Below are positions 1-29,134 of a DNA stretch of 34,482 nt, piece after piece. A model generated the notes under the pieces. That model ran no database searches and was not told where the DNA came from. It worked only from the letters and a program-made list of their open reading frames with translations. The translations under genes were made by a program, and so were the position numbers. Each line of letters starts with the position of its first letter. Position 1 is the stretch's first letter. The DNA is from Paludibacteraceae bacterium (GTDB lineage Bacteria; Bacteroidota; Bacteroidia; Bacteroidales; Paludibacteraceae), in contig JAFWXW010000004.1 in assembly GCA_017517845.1 (NCBI GenBank), forward strand, positions 1 through 34,482, given 5' to 3'.

Positions 1-1828
1 CCACAGGAGAGGTTTCTCCATAACCTTTGGCAGTAAGTCTAGCAGGGTCTATACCATGTTGAGTTAAATAATTTACCACAGACATGGCACGTTCTTGTGA
101 CAACTTAATGTTTGCCTCATCTGAACCTACAAAGTCTGTATGAGCACCTATTTCAATGGTGATATTAGGATTGTCGTTTAACAATTTCACCAAATCATTT
201 AAACCTGCAGTGGATTCGGCAGTAAGTTTTGCAGAACCAAACTCATAGAATATATTATTCATCTTCACAGGTTTACTAACAGAGTTTAGTGTAAAGTCCA
301 TTTTAAAATCCTTGCTGTCTTCCAGATTGGGAATCTCTAGTTCAGATTTATTATTTAGATAACCTCTACAAGTGCCTAAAATCACATAATTGGCATTTTT
401 GGGCAGGTTTATCTTATATGAACCATTCTTTTTGGTTTGGGTTGAGGTTATTACACCATTGTCACCTACTACTTTAATTATGGCTTCGCTCAATGCTTCT
501 CCTTTGTTGTCAAAAACAGTTCCGCTTATAGAAAATTCCAATTCTGGTTCATTAAAACTCCAGATATGGTCATAGAATTTCTTGTCATTTCTGTTGGAAG
601 AGAAGAAACCTTTGTTTTCTTTGCCTTGAAATGTTATTCCAAAATCATCTGCATTGGAGTTTAGTGGGGCAGGTAGGTGTAATACTCTCCATTTGTCTGG
701 CTCATTTGGTTTTTCTTTTTCTAGTAATGTGGCTTCATAAATGTCAAGTCCACCTAGACCAACTCTGCCGTCTGAGGAGAAATACAGTCTGCCGTCCTCC
801 CGAAAACTTGGGAACATTTCATCTGCAGGAGTGTTTATGGTCTCGCCCAAGTTTTCGGGAGGACCCCACCCAGCTCCATCTTTTGGAACTCTCCAGATGT
901 CCTTACCACCAAACCCGCCTGGCATATCAGAAACAAAATACAGATACTCTCCATCCAAAGATGGAGCTGGGTGCGCCACGTTAAGTGACGAGTCAGGCAG
1001 TATTTTTAGTTTCTGAGGCTCGCTCCACTCTCCGCCACTACGCTTGGAACTATAAACTGCAGTACCTAGTGTTTCTCCTTTTGAGGTAACACTCACTGTA
1101 TAAAATAATTCTTGTCCGTCTGCAGAAAGAGCACAAACTCCATCGTCATACTCTGTATTAATCTCACCTTCTAGTAGTTCTGGGTCTTCCCATTCGCCTT
1201 TGGCGTTGAGTCTAGAATAAAAAATATCATTATTTCTTTGACCAGTAATCTTACTAGTTTTTACTTTCTTACCACCTCTAGTGGAGTTAAAGTAAACCAT
1301 TGACCCATCTTTTGAAACAAATATAGGACAAAATTCTGAGAAACGAGAATTAAACTTCTTAAAAATCTGCACCTCATATCTACTCTTCTTTTTCCACGCA
1401 TTGAGTGCAGAATCACAAGAAGCAATACCAGCTAATGCTAGTTCGTTTCCTGGTGATAATTTTTCAAACTCTTCATATTGTTTTAGTGCCTCTTTGTACT
1501 TTCCATTATTTTTAAGGACTTCTGCATAATAATAATGTACTATGCTATCCTTATAATTGTAACGTACAGCATTTTTATAGGCACTTTCTGCTCTCTTATT
1601 GTTCTCTATTAGGCGATACGAATTACCCATTTTAAATGCCACCTCTGCCTTTTGTTTTTTATTCTTTTTGGCAGGAATACGTGGATAAATGGAACGATAC
1701 ATTTCTCCAGCGGAATAGTATTCACCTAAATCGAACTTTTTATCAGCCTTCTGAATACGAGAGTTGATGCTACACGAAGTTAGCATCAACCATATTGATA
1801 GTCCTATAAGTAATCTCTTATTTATCAT
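1..1828 (-). CDS. porE: PorE-like T9SS lipoprotein (TPR, PD40 propeller, CRD, OmpA domain), 3' end outside window
   Basis: I translated this gene by hand; it runs off the left edge after 609 codons. The ATG shares an ATGA overlap with the stop of the upstream response regulator, which fixes the start. Residues 1-19 form a lipoprotein signal ending LMLTSC, with Cys19 as the lipidated residue. Then follow TPR-like helices (about 25-140), PD40/WD40-like propeller repeats (about 150-400, with repeated LYFSSDG and VSDMPGGFGGKDIW), a carboxypeptidase-regulatory-like fold (about 425-500, ISGTVFDNKGEAL) and an OmpA_C peptidoglycan-binding domain (from about 520, HTDFVGSDEAN, LSQERA). This exact domain order is that of PorE of Porphyromonas gingivalis, which ties the T9SS to peptidoglycan. 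The family assignment comes from architecture, not a search. It is probably translationally coupled to rprY. Two long inverted repeats lie in the propeller codons. Confidence 0.88.
   Translation of the reverse strand, partial: MINKRLLIGLSIWLMLTSCSINSRIQKADKKFDLGEYYSAGEMYRSIYPRIPAKKNKKQKAEVAFKMGNSYRLIENNKRAESAYKNAVRYNYKDSIVHYYYAEVLKNNGKYKEALKQYEEFEKLSPGNELALAGIASCDSALNAWKKKSRYEVQIFKKFNSRFSEFCPIFVSKDGSMVYFNSTRGGKKVKTSKITGQRNNDIFYSRLNAKGEWEDPELLEGEINTEYDDGVCALSADGQELFYTVSVTSKGETLGTAVYSSKRSGGEWSEPQKLKILPDSSLNVAHPAPSLDGEYLYFVSDMPGGFGGKDIWRVPKDGAGWGPPENLGETINTPADEMFPSFREDGRLYFSSDGRVGLGGLDIYEATLLEKEKPNEPDKWRVLHLPAPLNSNADDFGITFQGKENKGFFSSNRNDKKFYDHIWSFNEPELEFSISGTVFDNKGEALSEAIIKVVGDNGVITSTQTKKNGSYKINLPKNANYVILGTCRGYLNNKSELEIPNLEDSKDFKMDFTLNSVSKPVKMNNIFYEFGSAKLTAESTAGLNDLVKLLNDNPNITIEIGAHTDFVGSDEANIKLSQERAMSVVNYLTQHGIDPARLTAKGYGETSPV
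794..864. repeat. Perfect 19-bp inverted repeat inside porE
   Basis: Arms 794-812 (GTCCTCCCGAAAACTTGGG) and 846-864 are exact reverse complements separated by 33 bases. In the coding strand they encode the GPPENLG and PSFREDG stretches of the propeller. The second arm uses CGG, GAG and GAC, codons that are uncommon in the surrounding AT-rich genes. Confidence 0.95.
867..973. repeat. Perfect 17-bp inverted repeat inside porE
   Basis: Arms 867-883 (CACCCAGCTCCATCTTT) and 957-973 are exact reverse complements separated by 73 bases. The left arm starts two bases after the end of the neighbouring 19-bp inverted repeat. The arms encode the KDGAGW and HPAPSLD stretches of the propeller. Confidence 0.93.
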
Positions 1829-15645: not shown

Positions 15646-15788
15646 GGGATTTTTAATGTGGGCGGTGCACATTGCGGAGCAATGCAGACCACTAGCATAA
15701 TCGCATTTTATATGAATTATCCAGCCAAACCCAAACTAGTGGTCCAAGTCGCCTTCCTTGCGACTGCACCGCCCACATTAATAATCCC
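15646..15788. repeat. 143-bp four-armed palindromic element
   Basis: The terminal inverted arms 15646-15669 and 15765-15788 match at 23 of 24 bases. Inside lie a hairpin CATTGC/GCAATG (15670-15684), a second inverted pair GACCACTAG (15687-15695)/CTAGTGGTC (15736-15744), and a hairpin AGTCGC/GCGACT (15747-15765). The whole can fold as two stacked stems with a side hairpin on each flank. It has no coding capacity of note, so it resembles a MITE-like or structured intergenic element. No target-site duplication is evident. Confidence 0.9.
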
Positions 15789-18785: not shown

Positions 18786-19532
18786 ATGAAAGAAGAAAAC
18801 AAAATAATACTTTATCAAGATGACAATGAGATAACTCGTGTATCTGTTCGTTTTGCAGAAGAGGACCTGTGGCTCACACAAGGGCAATTAGTTGAAATAT
18901 ACCAAACAAGCAAATCAAATATTAGCGAGCATATTAAACATATACTTGAAGATGGGGAACTTGGTGAGATTTCAGTTGTTCGGAATTTCCGAACAACTGC
19001 ATCAGACGGGAAACAATATATGGTTGCTCACTACAACCTAGATATGATTATTGCCCTAGGATATAGAATACAATCACAAGTGGCAACAATTCAAAATAAG
19101 TTACACTATGCTGTTCACGAAAATACAGCTGCCGAAGTTATTTATAATCGTGTAGATAGTGAAAAACCTTTTGTTGGAATGACCAACTTTAAAGGCAATT
19201 ACATTACTAAAGATGACGTAAAAATTGCTAAAAATTACCTTTCTGAAATTGAACTACAACGTCTAAATTTACTTGTTTCTGGCTTTCTTGATTTTGCAGA
19301 GTTTCAGGCATTGGAAATGAATCCTATGACAATGAAGGATTGGATAGATGCCCTAGACAATCAAATCATAGCTCACAAAAGGAAAGTACTAATGGGTAAT
19401 GGCAATATATCACACAAACAAGCTATAGAAAAAGCTGAAAAAGAATTTGAAATTTATCGTAAACGCGAAATAGAACTTATGGAAAGTGATTTTGATAAAT
19501 TACTAAAAAACTACAAGACTATTAATAGCTAA
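18786..19532 (+). CDS. rhuM: RhuM-family protein with internal deletion
   Basis: A 248-residue member of the RhuM (virulence protein) family. The N-terminal part (KIILYQDDNE, LWLTQGQLVEIYQTSKSNISEHI, HYNLDMIIALGYRIQSQ) and the C-terminal part (IQNKLHYAVHENTAAEVIYNRVDSEKP, YLDFAEFQALE-like FLDFAEFQALEMNPMTMKDW) are both typical. Family members are usually about 330 residues, and the roughly 80 residues between GYRIQSQ and the ATIQNKLH region are absent, an in-frame internal loss. It may be a relic or a shortened form. RhuM genes travel with mobile and restriction-modification loci, but none is adjacent here. A 27-base palindrome lies in the SVVRNFRTTA codons. Confidence 0.82.
   Translation: MKEENKIILYQDDNEITRVSVRFAEEDLWLTQGQLVEIYQTSKSNISEHIKHILEDGELGEISVVRNFRTTASDGKQYMVAHYNLDMIIALGYRIQSQVATIQNKLHYAVHENTAAEVIYNRVDSEKPFVGMTNFKGNYITKDDVKIAKNYLSEIELQRLNLLVSGFLDFAEFQALEMNPMTMKDWIDALDNQIIAHKRKVLMGNGNISHKQAIEKAEKEFEIYRKREIELMESDFDKLLKNYKTINS
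18973..18999. repeat. 27-base perfect palindrome inside rhuM
   Basis: CAGTTGTTCGGAA (18973-18985), one central T, and its exact reverse complement (18987-18999). It encodes VVRNFRTT, a well conserved stretch of the RhuM family. Confidence 0.93.
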
Positions 19533-23977: not shown

Positions 23978-26900
23978 ATGAAAAAATTTTATAACAATAC
24001 AATTATGAGTGGGGCTTTAAGCAAAGCCCTACGAGTGCTTGCCTTACTTTGCGTTCTACTTGGTGTGAGCAGTAGTGCGTGGGGGGCTGCCACTGTTACA
24101 ATTTATTTTGATAATACCAATACACAGTGGCCTGAAAATAGCATCTACCTATATATGGGACATGGAAGCTATTCTCGTAGTGATTGGCAAATGACAAAAG
24201 TAAGTGGCAATATTTTTAAATGTGATAATGTTGCTTATTGGTCTTTAGCGAATGCTACACAAATAGCATTCGCTAAAGACCAATGGAGTAAATCTGGAGC
24301 AAATGAATCCCTAGATACACGTTTAGTTCATCAAGGTACCAACAATTATACAAAAGCTATAAATATAAGTAGAGATGATGCTACTGCCTATATTTATATC
24401 CCTACATTATCAAATGGCGTTTATAGCCTTACAAAACAAGATTACGCAAACTATACTCCAGCATGCAATACCAATGCTACCACCATTTACTTCAAAAACA
24501 CGGTAAATTGGTCAAGCGTTTATGTTTACCTATATAATGATGAGTATTGGGATGAACAAAATGGATCAGGTTCTAACGGCATTAAAGCAGGTCCACTTCC
24601 TATGACTTCATGTAGTGGAACTGGCAATAATGCTATTTATAAAGTTGAATATCCATCAGGTCACAGTGGCTATATCTCATTTACTAAAGATTCACAAAAA
24701 GATTATAATAATTTCCATAATACAAAAGCAGCTCACAGAGGTGATTTATGTGGAGACAAGCCAATGTATGTCCCAAGCACTACTTCAAATGGCACATGGA
24801 ATGGCACAACCTATTATAGCGAAGGTAGTTGGGAAACTCATTCAGGCGACTGCGACGGCGGTGGCTCTGGTGGCGATGACGACGACGATGACACTGCTGA
24901 TTGCGATGGCAACAACATTGAAATTTGGTGTAGAGGCGATGGAGCCTACACAGATATGTGGTGTTATGCTTGGAATCCAGATAATGATTCACAAAAACCT
25001 TTTGGAGGTTTTGCTGGTAGCCAAACACAAGATAAACGTATGTACGATGGGCATCAATGGGCAGTTTGGACAGCAGAAGATTATAATAAATTGTCTGTTA
25101 TATTCTCTGATGGCAGTAGCAACTGCCAAACACAAGATATGACTGGACTAACAAAAGGGAATAGATATTATTTTGTTCTTTCAAATTCATGGAAAGACTC
25201 AAAACCTTCTATGACCGCTAAAGCCTGCGGTAGTAGCGAAGAAATTATCATTACCAATGGTACTGTTTATTTAGATATTAGCAAACTTACAGATTGGGAC
25301 GATGCAGGAGCAGAACTTCAAGTCAAAGTTACCTATAAATCTGGCGAGAGTGAAACATTAGACTTAATCCAATGTGCATTGGATGCTAACATCTTCTATG
25401 TAGATCAAATTCTTAACCTTGCTAACATTAGTAAGGTACAAATGCTTAGAAATAATCCTGCAGACCATAATGAATGGAATCATACTAGTGAGTTAACATT
25501 CTCTGCATCTACTCCTTGTGTGCAACTAACTGGCTGGGTAGATGGACAAGGCAGTGCAACTCTTACTTCCTATAGTGGTGCTTGTGGTGTAGAAAGCACC
25601 TCACCTGTGTACATTACTTACGACCCAATGCTTAGTGCAGGCAATACTATTGTTACCATGTATGGTTACCTTTCTGAAACAAACTGTCAAGCAATTACTG
25701 AATATGGATTTGTATATTGTATGGGTACTGCTACATCTGGTTGTACTCCTACCAAGAATTCACCTCGATTAAAAGCTGATAATTTATCTCAATTGTATCG
25801 CGGTGAAACATTCCAACATACTGCCACCAACTTGGCAAAAGGATACACATACGGATATAAAGCTTATGCCATGATTGGCGATATGATGTATTTAAGTGAT
25901 CAAACAGGCTACTTTACAATGGCAGACTGTACTACACGTCCAGTAGCGGGTGGAGATCCTATTAACATTACAGTAAATGCGGCTCTAGGTGAAGATTATG
26001 TAGATGATTGTTCGCTTACTTATGGTTCTCTTAAAACTGCTATCCAAAAACTAAAAGAATCTACTGAAAACGAAACCGATTATCGTTATGTAGTAAAATC
26101 TAATAATAGCTACAACTTGCAACAGCCTGTAGTAATCAATGTTCATTACTATGACGACACCCCAGATGACAATAAGCTGGCTTATATCTACCGTGGTACT
26201 ACCAATGTAGGCAAGTATGCAGGAAACAACAAACCTGCCAACTCTAACCTATTGGACAACTTTAACTACGAGGGTGCCGACCCTGCCAATACCTTAACCA
26301 TTAAAGCTGGTACCACAGTGGCTAAACCTTGGGTGCACCACATTGTTATTCGTAAAAGTAAAAACATTGTGTTAGACTCGCTATGTATCTACTCCGATCC
26401 AAATAATGTAGGAGACAATGCCTTGGAAATGGACAAAGATATTGCATCTGGCGATGCAGGTTGGCATTCGCTTAATACAAACGGCTACGTAGGCGATGCC
26501 AATATTTTGGTGCAAAACTGTATGATTGGTTCGGACGGATTTACAGGTATGCACATTTCCAGCTACAATGGCGTTACCTTTAAATACAACGACTTTGAAT
26601 CTGTATTTGACGATGCGTCTTCTAACGCCATTGCTTGGGGTGCATCTGCCAAGTTTATGTGGTGTAAAAACATTAAGTTTATTCAAAACAACTTCCGTGG
26701 TGACCATGCTACACTTATGTGGGTGCAAGATGTTCAAGATATGTTGATTATGAACAATGTGTTCTGGAATACCAATAAGTTTACGGCAAGTGCAGGACAA
26801 CGTAACCCTTCTGCTATACGTCTTGTTACTCAATTTGGTAATAAAGTGACGAATATGGGTGCTTACTATAATACATTCTACTTTGCAAATAATGGCATAA

Positions 26901-29134
26901 CTTCTTCTTCTACATACGATTTTATGTCGTTTGCCGAAGAAGCCAATATAGAAGTTGCTAATGTATTCTTTAAATACAACAACTGCTACAGTTATGACGT
27001 AGATTGCCCAGGTAAGAGCAGCAATCCATTCTTGGGCAAGAGTGTAAGTGGTGAAAATTTCTGTCCAAACAACTTCTGGAGCGAATATGACCAAGCTATT
27101 TACGATGGTTTATCTGATGCAGAGAAAAATACTTATTTATCTGCCTTTGCGTTTGGTTGTAATAGCAACACCTTTATCAACGTAAAAGGTGAAGTATGTA
27201 GTACTTCTGCTGCAACTCCAGCTTCGCTTATAGTAAAAGGCTCCAATATGAACAATGGTAGCAAACCTACCGACGATGAGTTGTTAGACTTTGAATTAAC
27301 AGATGACGAATCATTTGCAGACCGTTATTACATAAACGTACGTCCCAAAGGTGAAGGTTGGACATACGGTGCTTATCAAAGCAAAGTAAGTGCTCCAACC
27401 GATACTATTTATTGGGTAGGTTTGACAGACGATTGGGACGACCGTAACAACTGGGAATATTATACTCGTAAAGACCCAAATGACAATACAAGCCCAAGGA
27501 TTCGTCAGCGTGTATCTTGTATTAATACCTTTAGCAATAATCTAACTGCTATTGTTGAAGAAATTGGTTCTGTTGAAGTCTCTGGTGGTAGAAAATGGCC
27601 TCGCATACCAGATCATTTTGATAGTGGTCGTAGTAACTATAGTTATAGGGAGCATGTTTCTGCAGGTTTAACCAATGAAAATAACGGTAGCATGTTTGCC
27701 AAAAAGATTATAATAGAATATGGTGCTGGTATTATGGGTGTAGAAAACCTAAAAGATGGTCAATCGCTTTACTATGGAGACGCCGAAGTAGGCTTTACAG
27801 CTCCTCGTAACCAATGGATTCTAGTTGGAACTGTGGTAAAACCTTATGATGAAAAATTAGCTGACTATCGCAACGTTAAATCTGGTGACTATTTTGTAAA
27901 AGATCATTTGCCACACGTATATATGCATCAAGCTGTATTAACAGATGGCATGGCAAGTTGGGCAGAGTCGTTTACATCGCTTGAACAAGAGGTTGAACCA
28001 ACTACCGTGTTTGCTATTCAAGTGCCAGACCAATATGGTAAATACAAATTGCCTGCTGCGTACTATAACAACTTATATAAAACTAACTATAATCCTGCAG
28101 ATCCTATCGAATACAACAATTTTGTAGGTCGATTTGTAAACGAAGAGGATATGCCTAACTATACAGGGCTAACAGAGGGTACACCTGTATTGCTTAACAA
28201 CAGCTATCCTGCTAATATAGATGCACGTGAATTGGAAGAAGAAACTGGTGGCACCATTCAGTACTACAACTACGATGCTGGTACCTTTATGAATACAAGT
28301 GCTACATCTGATAAAGTATTGTTACGTCCTCAACATGGTTTCATCTTTACTCCTGCCGCTGATAAATCAGAGTTAGAAATTACAACTAAAATGTTGACAG
28401 ATGGTAATACTAGGTCACGTTCTGCAGAAGCAGAAATGCCTACATTCTCACTTAATTTATTCAATGCTAATACAGGTAAAGGATATAGTAATGCTGTAAT
28501 TCGTTATGATGAATTCCAAGAAATAGGAGTTCCAGCTGCTTCTGATGTAGAAAAGGTATTCTCTCCAAATACAGACGTTCCTGAGTTATATATCGTTGCC
28601 AACGATAATAAATACTCTAGATTAAATATAGGTTCGTTGGAACAAACCATTCCACTAGGAGTAAGACTAAAACAAGATATGAACATTAAGTTTGAAAAGG
28701 CTTATTTCCAAGGATTTAATAATGTAACTCTTGTAGATACTTACACAGAAAAAGAAACAGACCTGCTACGTAATTCATACACTACAGAAGCATTAGTAGC
28801 TGGTGATATTGAAGGTAGATTCTACTTAAACCTAGAAGAATTTATACCTAACGAAGATATTCCAGAAGACGATACCACTACAAAAGTAGATGAAAATACT
28901 GAGGTAACAAGTTCTATTAACATATTCGTAGAAGAATCTGACAATACCATTCGTGTAATAACTAATGGTGTGGAACTAGAAACAATTTACGTAAGTGATA
29001 TGGCAGGTAAAACCATGAAATATAATGTTAATGGATATGCAGCAAGTCTAAATCTACCTATTCCAAAAGGTGTTTATTTAATCCAAGTAATAGGCGATAC
29101 TGCAAGTAGAACAGAGAAAGTGATACTTAAATAG
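23978..29134 (+). CDS. Large T9SS-exported protein with starch-binding-like modules and right-handed beta-helix
   Basis: A 1718-residue exported protein. The signal peptide ends SSAWGA (about 36). Three aromatic-rich modules at about 37-160, 160-280 and 308-415 (TVTIYFDN, TTIYFKNTVNWSSVYVYLYN, NIEIWCRGDGAYTDMWCYAW) resemble CBM25/26-type starch-binding domains. They are separated by the linker GGGSGGDDDDDD near 294. Residues about 690-1030 have short hydrophobic repeats with Asn ladders (NILVQNCMIGSD, NIKFIQNNFRGD, DMLIMNNVFWNTNKF), the pattern of a parallel beta-helix. The last 75 residues are a T9SS sorting domain (TIYVSDMAGKTM...GVYLIQV...KVILK). No catalytic motif is recognised, so binding or adhesion to a glycan is likely. 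A perfect 21-bp inverted repeat sits in the first module. Confidence 0.85.
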   Translation: MKKFYNNTIMSGALSKALRVLALLCVLLGVSSSAWGAATVTIYFDNTNTQWPENSIYLYMGHGSYSRSDWQMTKVSGNIFKCDNVAYWSLANATQIAFAKDQWSKSGANESLDTRLVHQGTNNYTKAINISRDDATAYIYIPTLSNGVYSLTKQDYANYTPACNTNATTIYFKNTVNWSSVYVYLYNDEYWDEQNGSGSNGIKAGPLPMTSCSGTGNNAIYKVEYPSGHSGYISFTKDSQKDYNNFHNTKAAHRGDLCGDKPMYVPSTTSNGTWNGTTYYSEGSWETHSGDCDGGGSGGDDDDDDTADCDGNNIEIWCRGDGAYTDMWCYAWNPDNDSQKPFGGFAGSQTQDKRMYDGHQWAVWTAEDYNKLSVIFSDGSSNCQTQDMTGLTKGNRYYFVLSNSWKDSKPSMTAKACGSSEEIIITNGTVYLDISKLTDWDDAGAELQVKVTYKSGESETLDLIQCALDANIFYVDQILNLANISKVQMLRNNPADHNEWNHTSELTFSASTPCVQLTGWVDGQGSATLTSYSGACGVESTSPVYITYDPMLSAGNTIVTMYGYLSETNCQAITEYGFVYCMGTATSGCTPTKNSPRLKADNLSQLYRGETFQHTATNLAKGYTYGYKAYAMIGDMMYLSDQTGYFTMADCTTRPVAGGDPINITVNAALGEDYVDDCSLTYGSLKTAIQKLKESTENETDYRYVVKSNNSYNLQQPVVINVHYYDDTPDDNKLAYIYRGTTNVGKYAGNNKPANSNLLDNFNYEGADPANTLTIKAGTTVAKPWVHHIVIRKSKNIVLDSLCIYSDPNNVGDNALEMDKDIASGDAGWHSLNTNGYVGDANILVQNCMIGSDGFTGMHISSYNGVTFKYNDFESVFDDASSNAIAWGASAKFMWCKNIKFIQNNFRGDHATLMWVQDVQDMLIMNNVFWNTNKFTASAGQRNPSAIRLVTQFGNKVTNMGAYYNTFYFANNGITSSSTYDFMSFAEEANIEVANVFFKYNNCYSYDVDCPGKSSNPFLGKSVSGENFCPNNFWSEYDQAIYDGLSDAEKNTYLSAFAFGCNSNTFINVKGEVCSTSAATPASLIVKGSNMNNGSKPTDDELLDFELTDDESFADRYYINVRPKGEGWTYGAYQSKVSAPTDTIYWVGLTDDWDDRNNWEYYTRKDPNDNTSPRIRQRVSCINTFSNNLTAIVEEIGSVEVSGGRKWPRIPDHFDSGRSNYSYREHVSAGLTNENNGSMFAKKIIIEYGAGIMGVENLKDGQSLYYGDAEVGFTAPRNQWILVGTVVKPYDEKLADYRNVKSGDYFVKDHLPHVYMHQAVLTDGMASWAESFTSLEQEVEPTTVFAIQVPDQYGKYKLPAAYYNNLYKTNYNPADPIEYNNFVGRFVNEEDMPNYTGLTEGTPVLLNNSYPANIDARELEEETGGTIQYYNYDAGTFMNTSATSDKVLLRPQHGFIFTPAADKSELEITTKMLTDGNTRSRSAEAEMPTFSLNLFNANTGKGYSNAVIRYDEFQEIGVPAASDVEKVFSPNTDVPELYIVANDNKYSRLNIGSLEQTIPLGVRLKQDMNIKFEKAYFQGFNNVTLVDTYTEKETDLLRNSYTTEALVAGDIEGRFYLNLEEFIPNEDIPEDDTTTKVDENTEVTSSINIFVEESDNTIRVITNGVELETIYVSDMAGKTMKYNVNGYAASLNLPIPKGVYLIQVIGDTASRTEKVILK
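24011..24028 (+). promoter_or_regulatory. Hairpin in signal-peptide codons of the T9SS cargo gene
   Basis: GGGCTTT-aagc-AAAGCCC, a perfect 7-bp stem beginning at base 34 of the reading frame, the same offset as in the upstream CotH gene. Its function is unproven. Confidence 0.45.
24237..24284. repeat. Perfect 21-bp inverted repeat with 6-base loop inside a coding sequence
   Basis: Arm 24237-24257 and arm 24264-24284 are exact reverse complements with the loop CACAAA between them. In frame they encode WSLANA and IAFAKDQW of the first binding module. It is the strongest hairpin in the window. Confidence 0.97.

Follow-up and report, generated by a model that had tools for sequence, protein, structure and literature searches.

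In coding genes of Saccharomyces cerevisiae, the arms of inverted repeats (7–16 bp) are homogenized by template switching (PMC8604942), and in Escherichia coli lacZ reporters quasipalindromes are perfected by the same process (PMC7202029). Template switching also makes and keeps hairpins in RNA genes (PMC8794818), and perfect inverted repeats occur within translated mitochondrial genes of Nematomorpha (PMC6649704). We found nothing decisive on the question in passages of PMC10434271, PMC13155455, and PMC7999016.

Here we describe a perfect 21-bp inverted repeat in a protein-coding gene of a Paludibacteraceae-related genus. The stretch analyzed (the window) is one whole contig of 34,482 bases from a 1.68-Mb draft genome, G000, which is 81% complete and comprises 38 contigs. 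Like the yeast repeats, this one is perfect, lies in a coding frame, is imperfect in relatives, and appears to have had its arms equalized in place, with clustered amino acid replacements. However, strain-level ancestors could be reconstructed in yeast, whereas no close ancestor was found for the repeat described here, and no arm in the yeast survey table reaches its 21 bp (PMC8604942). The E. coli work concerns an engineered reporter (PMC7202029), whereas the window comes from a natural, draft-assembled gut genome. The Nematomorpha repeats are numerous, reach 284 bp, and encode conserved protein in both arms (PMC6649704), whereas ours stands alone, in a variable module. As in the RNA genes described in PMC8794818, a perfect stem may have been made or restored by one event, although here the host is a protein gene. 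Quasipalindrome correction is a known process, and the repeat is best explained as a fresh instance of it: we consider it, with a probability of about 0.7, to be the scar of at least one replication template-switch event rather than a conserved control element.

A perfect inverted repeat in the first module of a large reading frame

The repeat lies in an open reading frame at 23978–29134 (forward strand) that encodes a putative secreted protein of 1718 residues, for which a multimodular architecture is plausible. All Pfam matches to this protein are sub-threshold, including those to CBM26 (22.1 bits; cut-off 28.1) and to the type IX sorting domain PF18962 (10.6 bits; cut-off 27). The original prediction had called the product a T9SS cargo, a label that the PF18962 score does not confirm, although a diverged type IX sorting domain is possible. 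The first 37–51 residues resemble a signal peptide and are found again at the beginning of four further G000 genes and in three same-genus genomes. At the DNA level, the first ~107 bp (23978–24085) are 77–87% identical to these other copies, and a different sequence follows each one, as in a shared 5′ cassette.

The repeat-bearing N-terminal module (module 1; 24086–24454, forward strand) belongs to an FDNT...W...W family. Matches to it were found in 21 of 250 family genomes, G000 counted, the best outside G000 having an E value of 3.5e-6 and 37% identity. The nearest ortholog of the host protein, from genome G007, is 74% identical over residues 166–1718, and its first module is strongly diverged from, or different from, that of the window. 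Within module 2, about 124 of the 126 bases at 24560–24685 are the same as in G007, though the preceding module aligns poorly, which suggests recent recombination or module swapping.

The 5′ arm (24237–24257, encoding [Y]WSLANA[T]) and the 3′ arm (24264–24284, encoding [I]AFAKDQ[W]), both read on the forward strand, are exact reverse complements of 21 bp, separated by a 6-nt spacer, ACACAA (24258–24263). The repeat starts 259 bases past the ATG, after the presumed signal peptide, and spans the interval between two tryptophan codons: it begins 2 bases before the TGG codon of Trp88 (24239–24241), which lies within the 5′ arm, and the first base of the TGG codon of Trp103 (24284–24286) closes the 3′ arm. 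The geometry is exactly that originally predicted, as is the placement about 260 bases from the start codon.

That such a stem is far beyond chance, as had also been proposed, is borne out by several calculations. It is the longest perfect stem in the window (loop ≤150), and from base composition the whole window should contain about 7e-7 stems that are ≥21 bp with loops of ≤30. If the protein sequence is kept and its codons are sampled according to window usage, the probability of this perfect stem is 2.3e-4. When the host gene was recoded synonymously 200 times, the longest stem reached 16 bp once and did not exceed 12 otherwise. The repeat is thus beyond chance even when the encoded protein is taken as given. 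As RNA, the 48-mer folds into a single hairpin of −32.6 kcal/mol (z −12.4; local z −7.4).

Origin of the repeat and alternative readings

How did the repeat arise? The original prediction had proposed comparing the same codons in close relatives. In G007, the nearest ortholog begins with a strongly diverged or different module, so this comparison is limited to modules at 25–30% identity, in which the corresponding codons are imperfectly paired; a search of 250 family genomes for module 1 yielded no ortholog close enough to show the before-state. Alignment A1 comprises the window and the 11 best-fitting of 20 homologous module sequences (12 rows), with no close ortholog among them. A family profile built from 19 homologs, excluding the window and the G007 module, scores 47.6 bits against window residues 41–111; the alignment runs through both arms and has a single-residue gap where the 5′ arm begins.

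Both tryptophans are invariant throughout A1, and 14 residues lie between them in the window, as in 10 of the 11 homologs (15 in the remaining one). This constancy reflects the choice of subset, as the nine more distant homologs outside A1 (L008, L010, L034, L037, L045, L046, L049, L054, and the G007 module, L020) are missing the second tryptophan. Five of these nine (L008, L010, L045, L046, and L054) are from the same genus. Eight of the nine align without gaps over the 5′ arm columns, the exception being the G007 module. At the mapped codons, the 11 A1 homologs pair at 6, 6, 7, 6, 8, 9, 11, 8, 6, 7, and 5 of 21 positions, close to the ~5.6 expected from the window pairing probability of 0.267. 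A free inverted-repeat search returned nothing comparable in any of the 20 homologous module DNAs, whose best scores were 5–9, compared with 21 for the window.

Because the Trp-Trp spacing is kept in the best-fitting homologs while the same codons pair poorly there, it is most likely that nothing was inserted and that one arm was rewritten in place, in the G000 lineage. These comparisons, together with two additional window repeats in coding sequence that are imperfect in orthologs (see below), favor the template-switch origin that had been one of the two original proposals. The 5′ arm is slightly closer to the homologs (mean 8.8 of 21 bases, versus 6.7 of 21 for the 3′ arm), a weak hint that the 5′ arm would be the donor and the 3′ arm the rewritten copy.

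For quasipalindrome correction, we envision that the module DNA would first have held a partly self-complementary stretch between the two tryptophan codons. The nascent strand would pair with itself or with the sister template, extend by copying the other arm, and then return, so that one 21-base arm would become the exact reverse complement of the other with length and frame unchanged. A single event could suffice, and the direction of copying would be as suggested above.

The other original proposal was a regulatory mRNA structure, in which a selected hairpin would act by slowing ribosomes, by limiting or timing the synthesis of this very large exported protein, or by shielding the transcript from RNases or exposing it to them. 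The great stability of the stem and its placement 259 nt into the frame, past the presumed signal peptide, are compatible with such a role. However, the stem is absent from all 20 homologous modules, which, although only distant relatives, also show no sign of its being kept through compensatory changes. There is no terminator signature, as no site between 23700 and 24700 on either strand combines a GC-rich stem with a T-run, and no Rfam family matches anywhere in the window at gathering scores. The repeat also differs from the conserved coding palindrome at 18973–18999, described below, which models what constraint looks like. A selected hairpin is therefore unlikely and the proposal unsupported; under quasipalindrome correction, the mRNA hairpin is probably a by-product, most likely one tolerated in a variable module.

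It is also conceivable that template switching inserted a new reverse-complement arm, lengthening the module by about 6 residues. This idea comes from the pairwise alignment with the first module of G007, which has a 6-residue gap at the 5′ arm. The G007 module, however, fits the family profile weakly and in its first part only (21.1 bits, compared with 47.6 for the window module), and it also matches module 2 (41%). Because the 11 better-fitting homologs keep the Trp-Trp spacing, and their 5′ arm region holds the conserved tryptophan, we rank insertion behind rewriting in place; with the 5′ arm columns also ungapped in all modules outside A1 but that of G007, it appears quite improbable.

Could the repeat be an assembly or library artefact, such as a fold-back chimera? 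The incompleteness and fragmentation of the draft genome make the question a fair one. Nevertheless, the frame is intact, both flanks are family-like, and the spacing is kept, and a fold-back would be expected to flip direction instead of swapping 21 bases in place. We therefore regard an artefact as very unlikely, in agreement with the original prediction, which had argued from the intact frame that the repeat is not an assembly fold-back.

Rickettsia palindromic elements are compact palindromes in coding regions. An inserted REP- or RPE-like element or a recombinase site would likewise place a compact palindrome in a coding region, but this reading is extremely improbable, as the length is unchanged relative to the 11 homologs, apart from a single residue in one, and a dispersed element is largely refuted by a search of 16 genus genomes allowing ≤3 mismatches, which returned only the two arms themselves. 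No exact copy of the repeat was found in viral contigs.

Parallel repeats in envelope genes and constrained coding palindromes

A gene at 2–1828 (reverse strand) encodes TPR, PD40, carboxypeptidase-regulatory, and OmpA domains, an arrangement seen in PorE-type proteins. It contains two further perfect repeats, one of 19 bp with a 33-nt spacer (794–864) and one of 17 bp with a 73-nt spacer (867–973). In 14 orthologous loci of the same genus, 7–11 of the 19 positions of the first repeat are paired; for the second, 5–9 of 17 are paired in 13 orthologs, one partial locus being without the 5′ arm. These counts omit L115–L118, which are pieces or paralogs. Apart from the partial locus, the arms are ungapped. 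The arms are not significantly enriched in window-specific bases (5 of 72, versus 73 of 1731), and one relative, L106, has unique bases at 7 of the 72 arm positions yet has no repeat.

Outside the window, G000 carries a perfect 19-bp repeat with a spacer of 76 in a TonB-receptor-like gene (L071:9629–9742), named from its sequence and not from a family search. This repeat is also paired at 19 of 19 positions in G007 and G013, though two base pairs differ from G000, and these two compensated differences change amino acids in both arms. Pairing is 15 of 19 in G009 and 3–13 of 19 in nine further orthologs, a count that omits the partial hit L178. That the arms change together is what repeated template switching would predict; compensatory selection could also yield it. 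Since the arms are 16–17 of 19 identical to those of three relatives while the whole gene is 72–73% identical, constraint on the arms is possible too. With two parallel cases in the window and a third elsewhere in G000, the process can be traced by comparison.

What would a constrained coding palindrome look like? A RhuM-family gene (18786–19532) provides an example, a conserved and covarying palindrome of 13+1+13 at 18973–18999. We tested 20 loci: the window and one G000 paralog, the full set of 8 loci recovered from viral contigs, plus loci from 7 of 123 plasmid records and from 3 of 49 phage records. Protein-guided mapping at homologous codons succeeded for 18 loci (L185 and L200 were unmapped), 3 of which share one sequence. 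The mapped loci pair at 9–13 of 13 positions, whereas neighboring registers average near 3 and never exceed 8. A free scan found no palindrome of this type in L200, from a Gordonia phage.

Covariation over the 14 distinct rows scores 0.742, versus 0.284 (sd 0.036) in shuffled alignments and ≤0.158 with slid partners, and cells with changes on both sides number 50 versus 16.7 in the shuffles. The number of pairs with a double change (11 versus 8.7, reached in 35 of 500 shuffles) and the number of further pair types (20 versus 19.7) are unexceptional. The palindrome persists despite differences in the encoded residues and spans several phyla, with host lineages that include Bacteroidota, Bacillota, and Gammaproteobacteria. 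It may be an intragenic dyad operator, an RNA or DNA hairpin, or a product of repeated arm homogenization. On these comparisons, 18973–18999 behaves as a constrained coding palindrome, whereas the hairpin at 24237–24284 departs from that pattern. Among the literature matches listed, we found nothing relevant on RhuM palindromes.

Similar 27-bp coding palindromes with compensated differences occur in genes with an ORF6N domain, at L124:5160–6200 (reverse strand) and in the plasmid loci L194–L199. The encoded motif is LRSQ.VTS or a variant, and G000 has two copies 60 bp apart. Four of 6 mapped loci, one of them the query, pair at 11–13 of 13 positions in the mapped register; two loci mapped off-register and one was unmapped, and a free scan finds a palindrome in all three. 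Our literature search returned no relevant report on ORF6N palindromes or inverted repeats.

Rarity of such repeats and possible consequences

How common are repeats of this kind? Within frames of at least 200 codons, 825 kb of G000 (window included) contain 4 perfect stems of at least 16 bp, 3 of them in the window, and 760 kb of seven relatives contain none. For stems of at least 13 bp in G000 outside the window, we observed 14, against 1.5 expected under a synonymous-recoding null, or 2.5 by a second estimate; the relatives have 4, counted without the filtering applied to the 14 of G000. Six of the 14 lie no more than 68 nt from the start of a stop-to-stop frame, in what is likely upstream noncoding DNA, and 3 are the ORF6N and RhuM palindromes. 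Because part of the excess comes from these sources, we do not claim a raised rate for G000. We conclude that coding repeats of this kind are rare and non-random.

Scores above the cut-off for sbcC were obtained in none of 16 genus genomes (G006 and G009 have long sub-threshold matches) and for sbcD in 2 of 16 (G006 and G009, not G000), with only 1 of 14 and 8 of 14 control genomes, respectively, passing the same cut-offs. This pattern suggests loss of the hairpin nuclease SbcCD in the genus, subject to the weakness of these controls and the 81% completeness of G000. The large subunit of ExoVII is present in G000. It is possible that scarcity of SbcCD helps template switching.

The repeat at 24237–24284 provides a natural example, in a bacterium known here from a draft genome, of an apparent copying error that altered several adjacent residues at once. 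Such multi-residue, one-step changes can pass for positive selection. The repeat also serves as a warning that a striking hairpin in coding sequence need not be regulatory.

A broader and rather doubtful idea is that, in this ruminant-gut, Paludibacteraceae-related lineage, template switching repeatedly rewrites genes for envelope and secreted proteins in multi-residue blocks. By our searches, most genomes of the genus are without recognizable SbcCD, which would allow such stems to form and persist. The cases behind this idea are module 1, the OmpA-type protein (twice), and the TonB receptor with arms that change together between species. If it is correct, quasipalindrome correction would be a source of surface-protein variation.

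Finally, we note a stretch of about 142 bp at 15646–15788, outside long frames, with terminal inverted repeats of 23–24 bp. Its arms recur in nearly the same sequence at a second place in G000, L068:9286–9427, and the window copy has no Rfam match.
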